Source: Corynebacterium kutscheri
Lineage (GTDB): Bacteria > Actinomycetota > Actinomycetes > Mycobacteriales > Mycobacteriaceae
Direction: 5' to 3'
Assembly (NCBI RefSeq): GCF_000980835.1
Contig: NZ_CP011312.1
Coordinates: 248,001-312,000, forward strand
DNA: 64,000 nucleotides
Positions within the stretch are counted from its first letter, which is position 1. Every line of letters begins with the position of its first letter. The notes under the pieces are model-generated. The model saw only the letters and a list, made by a program, of their open reading frames with translations, made no database searches and was not told where the DNA came from. This document shows positions 13,804 through 25,044 of the stretch, piece after piece. The translations under genes were made by a program, and so were the position numbers.

Positions 13804-13929
13804 CCCTTATTTAGGGGTAATAGAAAAAATTTTCACGAGAGGTTGTCACTGTGAGGCCTAAAAAAGCGTCTAACTTCTTTGAACGTCGTAATTCCGCGGC
13901 GAGCACAGTGCCAAAACAAGGAGTATTTA

Positions 13930-14712
13930 ATGACATCCTCACAAAATGTGGAAGAAGTTTATTACAGTCACTGCAACCCACATGATACAGTCCACGCGAA
14001 GTATCATATGAAGCGAAATCGAGAAGAGCTTGCATATTGGGATAGCATTGTCGCTACAGAAGTAGTAGACCTTATGGCAGAGGCACGGAAGCTTAGTAAA
14101 TATTTGCCACTCGGTGCTGCTGAAATCCGAAAAAATATTAAAGCTATTCAATTTTTGCGTCTTGTTCCTGAGTTTTTCTTATATCTCAAAGAAAGCGGTG
14201 CTTTTGATATTGGGAGGATAGCTGCCTTAGCACAAGGACATGAGCATCTGAGTGAAAAAGAAATTATAGGTAAAGACACGCAATTATGTAAGCGGTTTCG
14301 TCCAGAAACTCAGGGACAGAAATTACCTTGTGCTGGTTATTTGCTAAGGACTATACGTCAAGATACTGGTGCTCCAGTGCAATCGTTAAAGAAGGATGCT
14401 GATAGAAGCAGTAATCGAAGTGTAGATCGTAATGAACCTGGAGTTTATACAGAGCGTCTTGCCAATGGGTTAATGTCTATCGTTGGTGTTTTTGATAAAG
14501 ACGATGCACTATTGCTTATGAACTGTATTCAGCGCTGCGCGGAGATACTTGGTATTACACGGGCAGAAGCATTAGTAGGCTTAATTACTTTTAGTTTTCA
14601 AGAATTAGTGCGCAGCAAAGATACTAAAGGCTTTGTTCAAAGTAGTAATACTAAACGACAACGAGATCTTGATCGTCGTAATCGACGGCGGGCGAGGCGA
14701 CGGAATCATTAG
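13930..14712 (+). CDS. DUF222/13E12-like protein without HNH domain (orphan)
   Basis: The protein has 260 residues; ATG 13930 has a good AAGGAG site at 13917-13922. The middle (FLYLKESGAFDIGRIAAL) and the segment LANGLMSIVGVFDKDDALLLMNCIQR...TRAEALVGL resemble the helical DUF222 region of actinobacterial 13E12-repeat proteins, which normally precedes an HNH nuclease domain. Here no HNH motif follows: the protein ends in a strongly basic tail (DRRNRRRARRRNH). No membrane segment is seen. It has no counterpart at this place in mycobacteria, so it is probably lineage-specific. The stop overlaps the convergent HAD gene's stop by 3 bp. Family assignment is tentative. Confidence 0.5.
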   Translation: MTSSQNVEEVYYSHCNPHDTVHAKYHMKRNREELAYWDSIVATEVVDLMAEARKLSKYLPLGAAEIRKNIKAIQFLRLVPEFFLYLKESGAFDIGRIAALAQGHEHLSEKEIIGKDTQLCKRFRPETQGQKLPCAGYLLRTIRQDTGAPVQSLKKDADRSSNRSVDRNEPGVYTERLANGLMSIVGVFDKDDALLLMNCIQRCAEILGITRAEALVGLITFSFQELVRSKDTKGFVQSSNTKRQRDLDRRNRRRARRRNH

Positions 14713-18504: not shown

Positions 18505-19335
18505 ATGGTTATTAAGTCCATTGATCAGGAAAAAAGCGATTTTAGACCTCTTAACGGGTGGAAAGTACTTGTGCCGCGTTCGGCACAACAAGCAGCTTCA
18601 ATGAGTAAGCAACTGCGTTTGTTAGGTGCGTTTCCAGCAGAAGTACCAACAATTTCTATTGTTCCACCACAGGATTTGAAGCCAATAGATATGGCTGTTC
18701 GTCAAATAGCAGAGGGATATTATCAGTGGCTTGTGGTAACCAGTATTAATGCGGTAAATGCACTTGAAGCTTCGTTACGACGTCTTGGATTATCAACAAC
18801 TATTTTTGATCAGGTCAAGATAGCTTGTGTGGGGATCAAAACCGCAAACGCTTTAGAGAAAATTGGTATTCGCACGGATATACAGCCATCAAAAACAAAT
18901 CAGCATGCTACAGGGTTAGTGGAAATTTTTCCACAACATGATGCACGAGCGAATCCAACAAAATCCGTATTACTTCCGCGAGCTGATATCGCAACGCAAG
19001 AATTGCCAGTTGGCCTGCAAAAGCTAGGGTGGCAAGTAGATGATGTTATTGCATATAGTACTGCTTTAGCGCCTGTGCCTTCTCAAGATGTGCAGGAAAG
19101 GATCACCGGGGGAGATTTTGATGCAATTTGTTTCACATCGGCATCAACCGTACGAAATTTAGTAAAACTTGTTGGTAGACCGCATAAACGTACTGTGATT
19201 GCATGCATAGGTTCTAAAACTGCTTATGCAGCAAGCGAATTGGGAATTCGGGTAGATGTTATTCCAGAAATCTCTACGGTGCCCCATCTTATTGAGGAGT
19301 TGGCGAAGTATGTACAAGCTGGTCGTATTGATTAG
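18505..19335 (+). CDS. hemD: Uroporphyrinogen-III synthase (stand-alone)
   Basis: HemD closes and rearranges hydroxymethylbilane to uroporphyrinogen III. The 276-residue protein begins with PLNGWKVLVPRSAQQA (residues 14-29) and has the two alpha/beta lobes of the family, with VVTSINAVNAL near 78 and ICFTSASTVRNLVKL near 212. In many actinobacteria, M. tuberculosis included, the gene at this place encodes a fusion with uroporphyrinogen-III C-methyltransferase; here there is no methyltransferase domain (no GxGPGD motif) and only 8 bp separate it from hemC. So the SUMT half is absent at this locus. Confidence 0.9.
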   Translation: MVIKSIDQEKSDFRPLNGWKVLVPRSAQQAASMSKQLRLLGAFPAEVPTISIVPPQDLKPIDMAVRQIAEGYYQWLVVTSINAVNALEASLRRLGLSTTIFDQVKIACVGIKTANALEKIGIRTDIQPSKTNQHATGLVEIFPQHDARANPTKSVLLPRADIATQELPVGLQKLGWQVDDVIAYSTALAPVPSQDVQERITGGDFDAICFTSASTVRNLVKLVGRPHKRTVIACIGSKTAYAASELGIRVDVIPEISTVPHLIEELAKYVQAGRID

Positions 19336-19436
19336 AAGCTTTTATTGTTTTTAGTGCAGTATCGTAGTCGTAAAAAATATAATGATTATTTGCGTTTGTG
19401 TTAGTGAAAGTTAAGTCGTTGCCGGAAGGATTGATT

Positions 19437-20459
19437 ATGACGAAGAAACCTATAACAACTGAGCATATTCTTCGACGTCCTCGGCGATTGCGAACCAACT
19501 CTGTGATGCGTGAACTTGTTGCTGAAACGTCTCTTCGTCCGGCTGATCTCATTCTGCCTATGTTTGTTGTCGATGGGTTAGATAATCCTCAGGAGATACC
19601 TAGTATGCCGGGGGTCTATCAGCACACCATGGATTCTTTAGTAGAAGCAGTTGATGAAGCAGTTTCAGTAGGGATCAAATGCGTTGATCTTTTTGGCGTT
19701 CCGTTAACTGAGAATAAAGACGCACGAGGAACACAAGCATGGGCTCAGGATGGAATCCTTAATAGAGCTGCCGGTGTGTTACGTAAAAATTTTGGTGATG
19801 AAGTCTTGATCATGACCGACACATGTCTAGATGAATTTACCGATCATGGCCATTGTGGGGTTCTTAATACTGATGCTTATGGAAACAGTTATGTTGATAA
19901 TGATGAGACCTTAGCTTTGTATCAAGCGATGGCGGTTTCTCAGGCTCAAGCTGGCGCTCATATTGTAAGTCCTTCTGGCATGATGGACGGTCAAATCCTC
20001 GCTATTAGACAAGCTCTTGACGCAGCAGGTTTTCGCGATACCGCGATTATGGCTTATTCCGCTAAGTACGCGTCTGCTTTTTACGGTCCTTTTCGTGATG
20101 CAGTTGGTTCCTCTCTAGAAGGTGACCGGCGAACTTATCAACAAAATCCGGCTAATCTTCGAGAGTCATTATTAGAAGTTACTCTGGATATAGCAGAGGG
20201 AGCAGACTTTGTTATGGTCAAACCTGCTTTATCATATTTAGATGTTGTAAAAGAAGTTTCTCGGATTAGTAGTGTTCCTGTTGCCGCGTACCAGGTTTCT
20301 GGTGAATACTCGGCGCTGTATGCAGCAGCAGCACATGGTTGGTTAGATCTTGATGCGGTGATGATGGAATCGTTATTGTCCATCAAACGGGCAGGTGCTA
20401 ATCAAATTCTTACGTATTTTGCGGTTCAAGCCGCTCGAAAATTGCAAGATGGTGCATAA
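19437..20459 (+). CDS. hemB: Delta-aminolevulinic acid dehydratase (porphobilinogen synthase)
   Basis: HemB condenses two 5-aminolevulinates to porphobilinogen. The 340-residue protein starts at ATG 19437 with GGAAGGA eight bases upstream; an earlier in-frame start lacks a site. The Schiff-base Lys262 is in VMVKPALSYLD, with Lys210 in YSAKYASAFYGPF. The metal-site loop reads DTCLDEFTDHGHCG: Cys130, Asp132 and Cys140, so the middle Cys of the three-Cys zinc type is Asp. A 101-bp gap separates it from hemD. Confidence 0.96.
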   Translation: MTKKPITTEHILRRPRRLRTNSVMRELVAETSLRPADLILPMFVVDGLDNPQEIPSMPGVYQHTMDSLVEAVDEAVSVGIKCVDLFGVPLTENKDARGTQAWAQDGILNRAAGVLRKNFGDEVLIMTDTCLDEFTDHGHCGVLNTDAYGNSYVDNDETLALYQAMAVSQAQAGAHIVSPSGMMDGQILAIRQALDAAGFRDTAIMAYSAKYASAFYGPFRDAVGSSLEGDRRTYQQNPANLRESLLEVTLDIAEGADFVMVKPALSYLDVVKEVSRISSVPVAAYQVSGEYSALYAAAAHGWLDLDAVMMESLLSIKRAGANQILTYFAVQAARKLQDGA

Positions 20460-20464
20460 AACCA

Positions 20465-21016
20465 ATGGTTGAGCAACAGTTAGAAAAGAAAACGGAGACA
20501 AGTACAACAAAACTGCCTGAGAAATTAATGTTTCTTTGGCAAGTGTGGATGGTGTTTTTAATTTTAGAATTAGTACACCAGATATTAAATATAGCTATGT
20601 CCATTGGGACAATGGATGAAATAAAGTTTGCATTGGCATCTAATTTAAAAGATTCTGGATACCAGGATGCAGGCGATAATCTTATTGCTCTGGCTGCTTG
20701 GCTATCTATTGGATTAGCTTTTGCTTTCTCTGTCGTTATATTAATAATTGCATTTTTCTTGGGTCGAAGAATGCGTCACGGTGGTATGAAAGCAGTAACT
20801 CCTAGGCTTTTCATGTTGATATTAAGCTATTACATGATCTTCCGTGGATTGCTTGTTTTTGTAGTCGAACCGACTAATTCTTTGCATATTGCCTATTATG
20901 CTGTTGATGGTGTACTTCAGTTGATTATTGCGGTAGTAAGCAGCGTTATTGTTTACGTGCTATCAACTAAAGAAATTTTGGCTTGGGTTTACAACGAAAT
21001 AGAGAAAAAGGCATAG
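20465..21016 (+). CDS. Conserved membrane protein, four TM helices (Rv0513-like position)
   Basis: The 183-residue protein has a charged N-terminal tail (about 1-20) and hydrophobic helices at about 21-48, 75-100, 113-134 and 140-168, followed by a short charged tail. There is no recognisable catalytic motif. It starts 5 bp after the hemB stop and should be in the same transcript. A membrane protein in this position is also found in mycobacteria and C. glutamicum. Function is unknown. Confidence 0.75.
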   Translation: MVEQQLEKKTETSTTKLPEKLMFLWQVWMVFLILELVHQILNIAMSIGTMDEIKFALASNLKDSGYQDAGDNLIALAAWLSIGLAFAFSVVILIIAFFLGRRMRHGGMKAVTPRLFMLILSYYMIFRGLLVFVVEPTNSLHIAYYAVDGVLQLIIAVVSSVIVYVLSTKEILAWVYNEIEKKA

Positions 21017-21224: not shown

Positions 21225-23873
21225 ATGGTTGATGTTCCATCGCAGAAATCTTCACATTCATTAGATACTGATTTGGAATCATCAATCAGGGCTGCAAAGG
21301 TTGCCGCCGAAAAGGCTGGCGTTAACACATCAACGATGCATGCGATTGATCCTGATGAAGCTTTCGTTGGTGCACTACATTCCGGGCGCACTTCTTTTTC
21401 TTTTGAATTGGAAAATCTACCAAGTGCGTCTTCAATTGCCGAGGTAGAAGCAGAAATTAATGCAATTGCTGGCATTGACGTGCGTATTGTTTATGCAAGT
21501 GCAACAGCTTGGGTAACTGCCTTACGCACAGTAGACCCAATGGCTATAGTTAATGCTTTTGCTAATTTTGGAATTACCGCCACCTTAACGGATTCCTCGC
21601 TTCGACGTCGGATAGCATGGGCAGATGTTGAAGACAGACGATACCAACAATCTCATCGACGCTATCGTCGGCGTAATTATATTTCGCAGATGTCTTCTCA
21701 GCTTCGTAGACAAGCTGAAGAAGAGGAAAAGAAATTAGAGTCAGCGCGTACTAGTGGATTTTTTAAAGAGAATACTTATGCTAAAAAATCTCAGGAAGAA
21801 CCAAGCGACGTTCTTTTTACAGCGCGTGCTTTATTGACGAAAAAACGACTCATTGTTTCAATAATCTTGACTATTCCCGTTATGCTCATTGGGTATTTTC
21901 CTGATTTCCAATTCAACTATTGGCAGTATGTTCTTTTGGCTCTGTCGGCGCCTGTGGTTTTTTATGGGGCATGGCCTTTTCATCGAGCAATGATTGGTGG
22001 CGCTAGGCGGGCTAAATCTGCCCTTGATGCTGCAAGTTCGGTAGCAATATTGGGAGCATGGTTGTGGTCAGCAGCAATGATTCTTTTTACAAGTGTTGGC
22101 GATTTGCATCATCGTGCTAATCCTCAGTGGACTTCCTTGGATCCCACAAAATTAGAAGATGGGGCGCTTTTTTTCGATGTTGCCTGTGGAATGACAGTGT
22201 TTTTGTTGATTGGGCGTATTTTTATTCGAAAAACACGACCGAGTTATTTCGAGTGGATTCATCAATTCAAAACAGCGTATTCTTCAGAAGTTCTTGTAGT
22301 AGTGAAGAACCGCAAAACAGGAAAAATTAATAAAGAATTGCTTCCATTGCAGAAGTTAAAGCCAGGTGACGATATTATTGTTGAACCGAGACAGACAATT
22401 CCGGTGGATGGATATGTCATTGGCGGATCGGCGATTATTGATGCGCGGGCAATTGGCTTGGAACCAATGATGGTAAAAGTTAATGACAGTGTGTACGCCG
22501 GATGCGTTAATGGTGATAAACCACTAAAGATTCGTGTGCAACATACTGGTTATAGAACTTGGTTGGCTGCAATTTACCGATGGGTAATGAATGCATCGGT
22601 AAACCAGAATAAGGCTGACATGATTGCGATTCAATCAGCATCGGTGCTTGTTCCTATTTCTTTTGTTATTGCTGCAAGTTCTTTTGCTATGTGGGCTTTG
22701 CTAACAAACAATCTTAACCAGGCATTTGCTACTAGTTTAGCTACTTTAGGTTGTGTGGCTCCTGTGGCAGTTGCTTTGTGTTCTTCCTTGCCTTCTCGTT
22801 TAGGTATTGAAGCGATGGCCCGTCGGGGAGTGCTAATTAGGAATTCACAGACAATTCATGAGCTAGATGTTGTTGATACGGTGATCATGAATAGGTGGGG
22901 AAGCCTCAGCGATAGTGAAATGAATGTGGAGACTGTAACTGCTGAACGTGGTGAGAATCCAGAACTTGTAGTTCGTGTTGCTGCAGCATTGAGTTTAGAG
23001 AGCGAGCATCCCGTTGCACGTGCACTGATTCGCGCGGCACGAGAATCACGTGATGCTTTGCATGATGATTCCATTCCAAGTTGGATTGAAGCATCACAAA
23101 TTACGCTTGATCATGATGGAAATTTTCATGCATTAGTAGAATTACCATTAAAAGACAGTACTGGTGAAGCAGAAATGCGAACTGTAGAAGCTGTTTTGTG
23201 GCGTCCGAAAGACTTATCCTCGTTAGAAGGCCGTTTGGCTGCGGCAGCCGTATCTGGTGGAACACCATTGGTTGTGACTTGGAAGGGCAAGGATAGGGGT
23301 GTGATTACCTTGCACGATTCTCCTAAAGATGATGCAACTACTGCAGTAGATGCCATGGAAGCATTAGGTTTAGAGACCGTCATGCTTAGCCGAGATACTT
23401 ATCCGGTGGCGCGACGTTATGGTGACTCTATGGGAGTATCTCATGTTTTAGCAGGTATTCAGCCGAGGCAGAAACCGCAAACTGTTCGTTCTGTGCGTAG
23501 CCATGGGGCTAAAGTCGCTATGGTTGGTGATTCTTCAGTTAATGAGTGTTTCCGAGTTGCTAATGTTGGTATTCTCCTAGGTGCTCTTCGCTCGATAAAA
23601 GATACAAGCGAGTTGGAACACCCTGCAGCAGATATTGTTATGTTGGATTCTAAAGTAATGTCGATTGCTCAGATATTTAGATTTTCATATCGTCTTAATC
23701 GTCTGATCCGCAATAGTCTTATATTGGTATGGGCATATAATGTTGTTGCAATACTTGCTGCCGTATCAGGAATTCTGCACCCCATGCTCGCTACGATATT
23801 GATGTTGGGTTTTTCTCTTATTATTGAGTTTCGTTCTGGTCGCGCCGCGAATCTGCAATCTAGCTATAATTAA
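21225..23873 (+). CDS. P1B-type ATPase homologue lacking catalytic residues (pseudo-ATPase)
   Basis: The 882-residue protein has the layout of a heavy-metal P-type ATPase: an N-terminal HMA-like domain (about 40-130, no CxxC), a basic cytoplasmic linker, several TM helices, actuator-like and P/N-like domains, and two C-terminal TM helices. Key motifs are degraded. DKTGTLT is NRWGSLS, with Asn556 in place of the phosphorylated Asp. The membrane CPC is C510-VAP. The TGE loop reads IGLE. GDGxND is GDSSVNE near 769. It should not form a phosphoenzyme. The frame is intact and codon use normal, so it is a diverged protein, not a decayed gene. It lies between hemB and hemE, which suggests a heme- or metal-linked role (inference). 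A RTSFSFELENLPS-type beta pattern in the N-domain remains. Confidence 0.8.
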   Translation: MVDVPSQKSSHSLDTDLESSIRAAKVAAEKAGVNTSTMHAIDPDEAFVGALHSGRTSFSFELENLPSASSIAEVEAEINAIAGIDVRIVYASATAWVTALRTVDPMAIVNAFANFGITATLTDSSLRRRIAWADVEDRRYQQSHRRYRRRNYISQMSSQLRRQAEEEEKKLESARTSGFFKENTYAKKSQEEPSDVLFTARALLTKKRLIVSIILTIPVMLIGYFPDFQFNYWQYVLLALSAPVVFYGAWPFHRAMIGGARRAKSALDAASSVAILGAWLWSAAMILFTSVGDLHHRANPQWTSLDPTKLEDGALFFDVACGMTVFLLIGRIFIRKTRPSYFEWIHQFKTAYSSEVLVVVKNRKTGKINKELLPLQKLKPGDDIIVEPRQTIPVDGYVIGGSAIIDARAIGLEPMMVKVNDSVYAGCVNGDKPLKIRVQHTGYRTWLAAIYRWVMNASVNQNKADMIAIQSASVLVPISFVIAASSFAMWALLTNNLNQAFATSLATLGCVAPVAVALCSSLPSRLGIEAMARRGVLIRNSQTIHELDVVDTVIMNRWGSLSDSEMNVETVTAERGENPELVVRVAAALSLESEHPVARALIRAARESRDALHDDSIPSWIEASQITLDHDGNFHALVELPLKDSTGEAEMRTVEAVLWRPKDLSSLEGRLAAAAVSGGTPLVVTWKGKDRGVITLHDSPKDDATTAVDAMEALGLETVMLSRDTYPVARRYGDSMGVSHVLAGIQPRQKPQTVRSVRSHGAKVAMVGDSSVNECFRVANVGILLGALRSIKDTSELEHPAADIVMLDSKVMSIAQIFRFSYRLNRLIRNSLILVWAYNVVAILAAVSGILHPMLATILMLGFSLIIEFRSGRAANLQSSYN

Positions 23874-23970: not shown

Positions 23971-25044
23971 ATGTCAAAGAAGCGCTTGAACCTTAAATCC
24001 CCGCTTATCGATGCTGCAATAGGGAAAACACCTTCGCGCCGGCCAGTATGGTTTATGAGACAAGCAGGACGGTCATTACCTGAATATCGTGAAGTGCGTC
24101 AAGGCATTGATATGCTTGATTCTTGCTTTATGCCGGAGTTGCTAGCTGAGATTACCTTACAACCGGTGCGTAGACATGATGTTGATGCAGCAATCCTTTT
24201 TTCGGACATAGTTGTACCGCTTAAAGCGGCAGGTGTTGAAGTTGATATTGTGCCAGGACGTGGTCCCGTTATGGCACAAGCATTACGCACTAAAAATGAT
24301 GTGCAAAAACTACCGATTTTAGATGGTGATGTGCCGGAAGTTTCAGCAGGAATTCAAATTATTCTTGATGAGTTAAATGATGCTCAAGCGCTTATAGGTT
24401 TTGCAGGTGCGCCGTTTACTTTAGCTAGTTATTTGGTGGAGGGGGGTCCAAGTCGAAACCACGAGAAGACAAAGGCAATGATGCATGCTGATCCTGAGGC
24501 GTGGCATCTGCTTATGGAACGTCTAGTTCCTAGTATTGTGCATTTTTTAAAAGTACAAATAGATGCAGGTATTGATGCTTTACAGCTGTTTGATTCCTGG
24601 GCGGGTTTCTTAACTCAACGTGATTATCGTGAATTTGTTTTGCCCTATTCACGGCAGATTTTGACAGAAGTAGAAGTGATACCACGGATTCATTTTGGTG
24701 TTGGCACCGGTGAGCTATTAGGGGCAATGAGTGAGGTTGGTAGTGAAGTTATGGGGGTAGATTGGCGAGTTCCCCTTGATGAGGCTGCTCGACGTATTAC
24801 TTCAATAACATCGCCGCGGGTTCTTCAAGGTAATCTTGATCCCGCGATGCTCTTTGCAGGGGAAGAGGTTTTACGTAAAGAAGTTGCGCGTATTTGTCAG
24901 GAGGCAGATAAAGCAATTGCAGATGGTATTGCATTAGGGCACATTTTTAATCTTGGACATGGTGTGCTTCCAACAACTGATCCTGATGCAATTACACAAG
25001 CTGTAAATATCATTCATGATCATCTTCCTTTGAAAACCGTCTAG
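23971..25044 (+). CDS. hemE: Uroporphyrinogen decarboxylase
   Basis: HemE converts uroporphyrinogen III to coproporphyrinogen III. The 357-residue protein has the N-terminal signature PVWFMRQAGRSLPEYR (residues 21-36), AILFSDIVVPL near 74 with the catalytic Asp, the GAPFTLASYLVEGG motif near 145, and the C-terminal FNLGHGVLPTTDP near 330. ATG 23971 has AAGATAAGGG upstream. It is 19 bp before cgoX, forming a hemE-cgoX unit. Confidence 0.96.
   Translation: MSKKRLNLKSPLIDAAIGKTPSRRPVWFMRQAGRSLPEYREVRQGIDMLDSCFMPELLAEITLQPVRRHDVDAAILFSDIVVPLKAAGVEVDIVPGRGPVMAQALRTKNDVQKLPILDGDVPEVSAGIQIILDELNDAQALIGFAGAPFTLASYLVEGGPSRNHEKTKAMMHADPEAWHLLMERLVPSIVHFLKVQIDAGIDALQLFDSWAGFLTQRDYREFVLPYSRQILTEVEVIPRIHFGVGTGELLGAMSEVGSEVMGVDWRVPLDEAARRITSITSPRVLQGNLDPAMLFAGEEVLRKEVARICQEADKAIADGIALGHIFNLGHGVLPTTDPDAITQAVNIIHDHLPLKTV

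Follow-up and report, generated by a model that had tools for sequence, protein, structure and literature searches.

Here we describe a gene of Corynebacterium kutscheri, named PSA throughout, which encodes an 882-residue pseudo-P1B-type ATPase and lies in a 64,000-nucleotide stretch of contig NZ_CP011312.1 (positions 248,001 to 312,000 of the forward strand, hereafter the window; coordinates in Table 1). PSA keeps the architecture of a heavy-metal pump and has lost the phosphorylated aspartate together with several further catalytic and metal-binding motifs; it belongs to a family, seen only in Corynebacterium, in which the altered residues are themselves conserved. We are confident that this non-pumping status is a conserved property of the family, and the best reading, which we consider probable, is that of a genus-specific, non-pumping pseudo-Cu+-ATPase serving as a membrane receptor, scaffold or regulator.

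The PSA frame is intact from its ATG start, in agreement with a first-pass annotation of this DNA that had recognized a full-length frame of 882 codons with P-type ATPase layout. Pfam matches to E1-E2_ATPase (87.6 bits) and to the HAD hydrolase (40 bits) both exceed their cut-offs, as does the match to the general P-type ATPase model of NCBIfam, TIGR01494 (107.5 bits; cut-off, 62.3); the NCBIfam heavy-metal models score below their curated cut-offs (TIGR01525, 262 against 346; TIGR01511, 213 against 397). A phmmer comparison relates PSA to 3rfu with an E-value of 9e-45, and structure prediction, which the first-pass annotation had proposed as a check, returns a P1B fold in both the AlphaFold2 (AF2) model and the fold match. 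Together with the tree discussed below, these results establish PSA as a P1B-type protein in both architecture and descent.

P-type ATPases are defined by a phosphorylated aspartate, and we followed this and the other motifs through 169 listed protein clusters of the PSA family, with 43 CopA-type proteins as controls. Site 556, an Asp in 43/43 controls, is Asn in 168 family clusters, His in one and Asp in none, and R557, R723, D724, K750 and P513 are each present in 169/169. The DKTG, CPC-type and GDGxND motifs are retained in every control; likewise, the D, K, T and G of DKTGT stand in all 13 intact P1B pumps taken from the window genome and related genomes. In the family, by comparison, no cluster carries CPC, CPH, SPC or CPS at the M4 metal site (0/169 against 43/43 controls), TGE at the aligned position of the actuator (A) domain (0/169), GDGxND in place (0/169) or a Cys at 67 or 70, the HMA cysteines (0/169 against 41/43 controls). 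Furthermore, position 267, a Met in the controls, is Leu in 169/169 clusters, and Asp469 is replaced by Thr in 124/169; from LpCopA we take position 267 to be the copper entry and both positions to lie on the copper path.

Reading the motif letters back from the window DNA confirmed them. The first-pass annotation had read DKTGTLT as NRWGSLS, with Asp changed to Asn556, and GDGxND as GDSSVNE, both of which stand. It had also given CPC as CVAP; the loss is real, but CPC aligns with A512-P513-V514, so that Cys510, a Cys in 57/169 clusters, is not the CPC cysteine, and a single Cys at the site itself (as CPV) occurs in 2/169. Its statement that TGE is lost holds for the motif (PSA reads GLE) but not for the Glu itself, which is present in PSA and in 8/169 clusters, and the N-terminal HMA-like fold without CxxC is a further loss that it did not include. 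The alignment of orthologues that it had called for shows the altered residues conserved across Corynebacterium, and orthologues bearing Asp in the same place, its own counter-case, occur in none of the 169 clusters or of 120 distinct DNA copies.

The rebuilt positions are conserved beyond their surroundings. Across the 14 positions of DKTGT, TGD, K and GDGxND, mean identity is 0.853, compared with 0.655 for the phosphorylation (P) domain (a value reached by 10 of 10,000 random sets). For the eight retained positions among them it is 0.988 (0/10,000 as high), a set picked after its conservation had been seen, which makes the 14-position test the fairer one. The TGE loop, unlike these P-domain positions, is variable across the family. 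No intact-motif relative emerged from the 169 clusters or the 120 distinct DNA copies: a single 'DKTG' string (P0082) starts near residue 427, away from the site, and five strings of the form [TS]GE[SP] occur either close to the N-terminus or next to the phosphorylation site, outside the A-domain loop. Separately, the copy at L061 in G048, a divergent family member 97% identical to P0121 of C. frankenforstense, carries a His-rich stretch, GHGEGHTHMHGHGLGHHRH, at the former TGE loop that could bind metal; at least seven His in 20 residues are found in 1/169 clusters, namely P0121.

At the DNA level, 120 distinct copies (from 154 loci) all encode Asn556, by AAC in 110 and AAT in 10, and all encode Arg557, by five of the six Arg codons. 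Synonymous codons thus vary while Asn-Arg stays fixed, indicating that these codons do mutate and that the residues are maintained by selection. Among 55 distinct PSA loci, N556, R557, G559, R723, D724 and K750 are present in 55/55. The ratio of nonsynonymous to synonymous divergence (dN/dS), another check raised by the first-pass annotation, ranges from 0.018 to 0.243 in close pairs (36 usable pairs: 45 passed the score cut, 40 lay within identity limits and 4 had no usable dS; some repeat a genome). In the eight pairs with full loci, PSA gives 0.040-0.243 and the hem genes 0.010-0.207, low and similar values. Seven PSA matches were flagged with one stop among the matches listed in the first genome search, and six of these stops lie at the C-terminal end or, in G060, upstream of the likely start; in the seventh (L215, G176) the frame stops early, inside the last membrane helix. 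A decaying pseudogene or sequencing artefact might be suspected from this early stop, from several catalytic motifs being gone together and from the absence of PSA in 44/201 genomes. Identical altered residues in 120/120 distinct copies and, bar one His, in 169 clusters, together with the low dN/dS, nonetheless refute decay or relaxed selection despite the early end in G176, and we assign this explanation a negligible probability. PSA is under purifying selection and, judged from its sequences, the motif loss is not local decay. The first-pass view of a catalytically dead yet selected, non-pumping protein is thereby sustained, and the relaxed selection or frameshifts that it had named as evidence to the contrary amount to one early end among the seven flagged stops.

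The family was sought in 201 Corynebacterium genomes, window genome included, and PSA is present in 157. A first search matched 156 at an E-value of 1.1e-131 or better, and a second search of the other 45 with an alignment added the divergent copy of G048. The hem locus was fetched for 39 of the 44 genomes without PSA; in 38 it includes hemB and hemE, 512-2602 bp apart with no PSA match, and for the other six, absence is judged from the searches by themselves or from part of the locus. The 113 genomes sampled from 30 further genera in the same taxonomic family give no match above 401 bits, compared with 885-1438 bits in seven of the eight Corynebacterium genomes of that sample. Protein database searches (best 120 of 739 and best 120 of 163 matches, so that weaker members elsewhere are possible) give family members among the matches listed down to 577 bits, followed by a drop to 274 bits and ordinary CopA. 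Where a species is given for these members it is a Corynebacterium in all but one record, and in the named genome collection all 80 loci kept (80 of 102) are Corynebacterium. As far as observed, the family is therefore specific to this genus. Its occurrence in C. callunae and C. gallinarum leads us to expect an orthologue in C. glutamicum as well. The exceptional record, P0059, is labelled Staphylococcus chromogenes and has a Corynebacterium-type pseudo-pump, probably through contamination or a wrong label.

When 18 members of the family are placed in a tree with 20 further P1B pumps, the family forms one clade with full support (100 in the Shimodaira-Hasegawa-like approximate likelihood ratio test, SH-aLRT), on a stem of 2.43 changes per column. 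This clade falls within the Cu+ pumps, and its closest rows belong to CopA proteins of actinobacteria. Across 90 copies, distances between PSA proteins correlate with those for hemB (r 0.75; 0/1000 permutations as high), as vertical inheritance would predict. Mapped onto a 150-row hemB tree, the presence and absence of PSA require at least seven changes, of which well-supported branches force only one. The simplest reading is a single early gain followed by several losses.

PSA stays in its genomic neighborhood. In the window it shares the strand of its neighbors with short gaps, and the cluster runs on into hemG, then into a hemL-type gene, so named from gene order, and into genes for cytochrome c assembly. 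The latter encode a histidine phosphatase, a thioredoxin of the AhpC/TSA type, a membrane protein resembling DsbD that scores slightly below its cut-off, ResB and Cytochrom_C_asm. The first-pass placement of PSA between hemB and hemE is right as to the flanking genes, with the amendment that a membrane open reading frame (ORF) of 183 residues separates PSA from hemB. In 107/120 PSA loci (95/105 distinct copies), PSA sits between hemB and either hemE or hemL: 70 loci have hemB and hemE around PSA, 37 hemB and hemL, four hemB with neither, one lacks hemB as well and eight are too short (65, 30, 2, 1 and 7 by distinct DNA copy). The 37 loci with hemB and hemL arise because hemE and hemG have left. 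Indeed, hemE lies away from the PSA locus in G056, G001, G174, G034 and G153 and is present in G028, G160 and G157, its position there not being among those listed. In a large species group (L076, L077, L081, L097-L103, L110-L113), hemE and hemG have departed and PSA directly precedes hemL.

Relatives of the 183-residue membrane protein occur also where PSA is absent, and they have the highest dN of all genes compared in 5/5 pairs. A second membrane ORF precedes PSA in many species, also occurs without it and is missing from the window, and we rejected these ORFs as candidate partners. A scan for promoters and terminators of PSA gave sites no more numerous than in shuffles. Elsewhere in the locus, hemD stands alone in the window (18505-19335, 276 residues), is part of a frame of ~585 residues in L094 and L095, and in many loci follows hemC at a distance of ~1 kb, as though a further domain were fused to it; a 277-residue ORF with no Pfam match lies upstream of the hem genes (window 13879-14712).

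Table 1. Features of PSA and its neighbors, in window coordinates.
Feature	Position	Strand	Basis
PSA, pseudo-P1B-type ATPase gene, 882 aa	21225..23873	+	intact ORF, Pfam, NCBIfam, family alignment
HMA-like ferredoxin fold without CxxC, aa 55-121	21387..21587	+	strand/helix order in AF2 model
First membrane helices, aa 206-340; WPFHRA platform retained, Met267 to Leu, new Cys321	21840..22244	+	alignment, AF2 model
Cys321	22185..22187	+	family alignment
Actuator-like domain, aa 355-440	22287..22544	+	AF2 model
Former TGE loop, GLE, aa 411-413; varies within family	22455..22463	+	alignment
Former CPC region, C510-V-A-P-V514; Pro513 invariant	22752..22766	+	alignment
Former phosphorylation site DKTGTL, now N556-R-W-G-S-L561	22890..22907	+	alignment, DNA read-back
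Nucleotide-binding-like domain, aa 574-679; His595 mostly retained, GxG gone	22944..23261	+	alignment
R723-D724 (G-D of TGD in active pumps)	23391..23396	+	alignment
Lys750, invariant as in active pumps	23472..23474	+	alignment
Former GDGxND, now GDSSVNE, aa 768-774	23526..23546	+	alignment
hemB	19398..20459	+	Pfam
Membrane ORF of 183 aa separating hemB and PSA; unmatched in Pfam and NCBIfam	20465..21016	+	library scan
hemE	23971..25044	+	Pfam
hemL-type gene	26574-27899		gene order

Given this setting, the first-pass annotation had linked PSA to heme, and a dedicated heme biosynthesis factor, whether a membrane scaffold or a heme/metal sensor organizing or regulating HemB, HemE and their neighbors, agrees with the flanks of hemB and hemE in 65/105 distinct copies (hemB and hemL in 30/105) and with the compact, co-directional arrangement in the window. 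The distribution of the pathway genes speaks against it. All 44 genomes without PSA have hemE, and hemE and hemG can depart while PSA stays. Conversely, at a threshold of E 1e-30 across the 201 genomes, no hemE match was found in three, G055, G140 and G118 (the last only 53% complete). G055 and G140, draft assemblies rated 99 and 100% complete, also give no hemA match, and G140 gives no hemB match. PSA is retained in both G055 and G140, as is ferrochelatase, the G140 locus reading hemD, membrane ORFs, pseudo-pump and a shortened hemG, and their PSA pair has a dN/dS of 0.075, part of which divergence may predate the gene losses. Since PSA persists without detectable hemA, hemB or hemE, and hemE without PSA, tetrapyrrole synthesis as such is not what keeps the gene, nor, on these gene contents, is PSA needed for it. 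The claimed heme link thus keeps its conserved position in the hem cluster and loses co-occurrence with the pathway; a dedicated biosynthetic factor seems rather unlikely to us, while a connection with the use of heme, with cytochrome assembly or with copper is possible. G055 and G140 (loci L094 and L095) are related corynebacteria, both with a shortened hemG, and probably depend on imported heme or precursors.

Other explanations keep PSA closer to pump biochemistry. It might regulate an active P1B pump as its partner, for example in a heterodimer or as a copper-chaperone decoy. Such a role would fit the tree placement among Cu+ pumps, the retained WPFHRA membrane platform and P and nucleotide-binding (N) domain fold, and the presence of two intact P1B pumps in the same genome; both of these pumps, however, lie far from PSA, and loss of CxxC makes metal exchange through the HMA domain unlikely, so that we judge this role improbable. 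We give about the same low credence to a passive conduit or a metal- or tetrapyrrole-binding protein that would use new membrane residues. Several residues, unlike those of the controls, are near-invariant (D318 in 160/169 clusters, C321 in 167/169 where the 43 controls have Ala, Ser or Thr, E868 in 161/169, R262 in 168/169, R525 in 160/169), and the G048 protein is His-rich where TGE was. Against this reading stand the missing CPC cysteines and entry Met, with the lone Cys of CPV in only 2/169, and the restriction of the His-rich stretch to the one cluster of G048. That PSA still hydrolyses ATP by unusual chemistry we consider very improbable: D724 and K750 are invariant, the HP of the N domain is retained (H595 in 159/169) and D769 is present in 158/169, but a carboxylate is missing at the nucleophile position in 169/169, the GxG of the N domain has become D631 and N633 (Gly in 7/169 and 6/169, respectively), and TGE and GDGxND are found in 0/169.

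We therefore return to a non-pumping membrane receptor, scaffold or regulator as the probable role, against which several observations weigh. PSA is absent from 44/201 genomes, and one frame ends early in its last helix. The very long stem invites tree error, and support for the placement among CopA proteins is only 81 and 85. The E1-like shape of the PSA model does not argue for locking, and the idea of a locked E1 conformation was dropped, as intact CopA modelled likewise also resembles E1 structures much more closely than E2P. The proposed partner and role derive from the position of the gene. In C. glutamicum under copper excess, hemL and ccs-type neighbors are up 3.6- to 4.6-fold (PMC3140484); this copper-induced set starts at hemL, and the excerpted report does not name hemB, hemE or the PSA gene (PMC3140484), which makes the copper link one of neighborhood only.

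Under this receptor reading, PSA would descend from a P1B-1 ATPase gene for Cu+ export that lay in the hem cluster at an early stage of Corynebacterium. Phosphorylation (D to N, K to R), the CPC metal site, the entry Met, the dephosphorylation loop with TGE, GDGxND and CxxC would all have been lost, after which the protein took on a new form that is now strongly conserved. The whole fold is retained, but the phosphorylation cycle can no longer run. The rebuilt P-domain pocket (N556, R557, R723, D724, K750) may hold shape or a ligand without any reaction, and the N and P domains might dock a partner, making PSA a membrane receptor or scaffold. Because the gene stays in that cluster, the partner would most likely belong to respiratory cofactor handling, that is, heme, copper or cytochrome c assembly. 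Its position beside heme and cytochrome c genes suggests, tentatively, a receptor or assembly role in such handling. Similarly speculative is the fuller proposal of a single conversion of a complete copper pump into a receptor for signalling or assembly. Its pocket would then be a new, fixed site for a ligand or partner, and the receptor would tie assembly of the respiratory chain to copper or heme status throughout Corynebacterium.

If correct, P-type ATPases that do not pump would form a conserved family in bacteria, of a kind for which the literature searched offered no description: we found no paper on PSA and, among the matches listed, none on P-type ATPase pseudoenzymes. With Asp lost and a new pocket fixed across a genus, the family would offer a natural test of what the remainder of a pump is able to do without pumping, and PSA itself a defined knock-out target within a well-studied gene cluster.

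Compared with the P1B-1 Cu+-exporting ATPases (CopA type; TIGR01511, AfCopA 7r0g), PSA is without catalytic Asp, CPC, entry Met, TGE, GDGxND and HMA CxxC. It nevertheless resembles the HAD-IC P-type ATPases of TIGR01494, above whose cut-off it scores, and in databanks its relatives go by names like 'heavy metal translocating P-type ATPase' and 'copper exporter'. Such names imply pumping, against which the residues of PSA speak, and these Corynebacterium records are probably misnamed. Pseudoenzymes, pseudokinases among them, hold a dead active site in a fixed altered form under selection, and PSA is like them in this. Among P-type ATPases, C. elegans CATP-1 has been proposed to act partly without pumping (PMC11631496); as far as the excerpted report goes, CATP-1 is a working pump impaired by D409E, with a pump-independent role left open, whereas the PSA family lacks the Asp throughout (PMC11631496).
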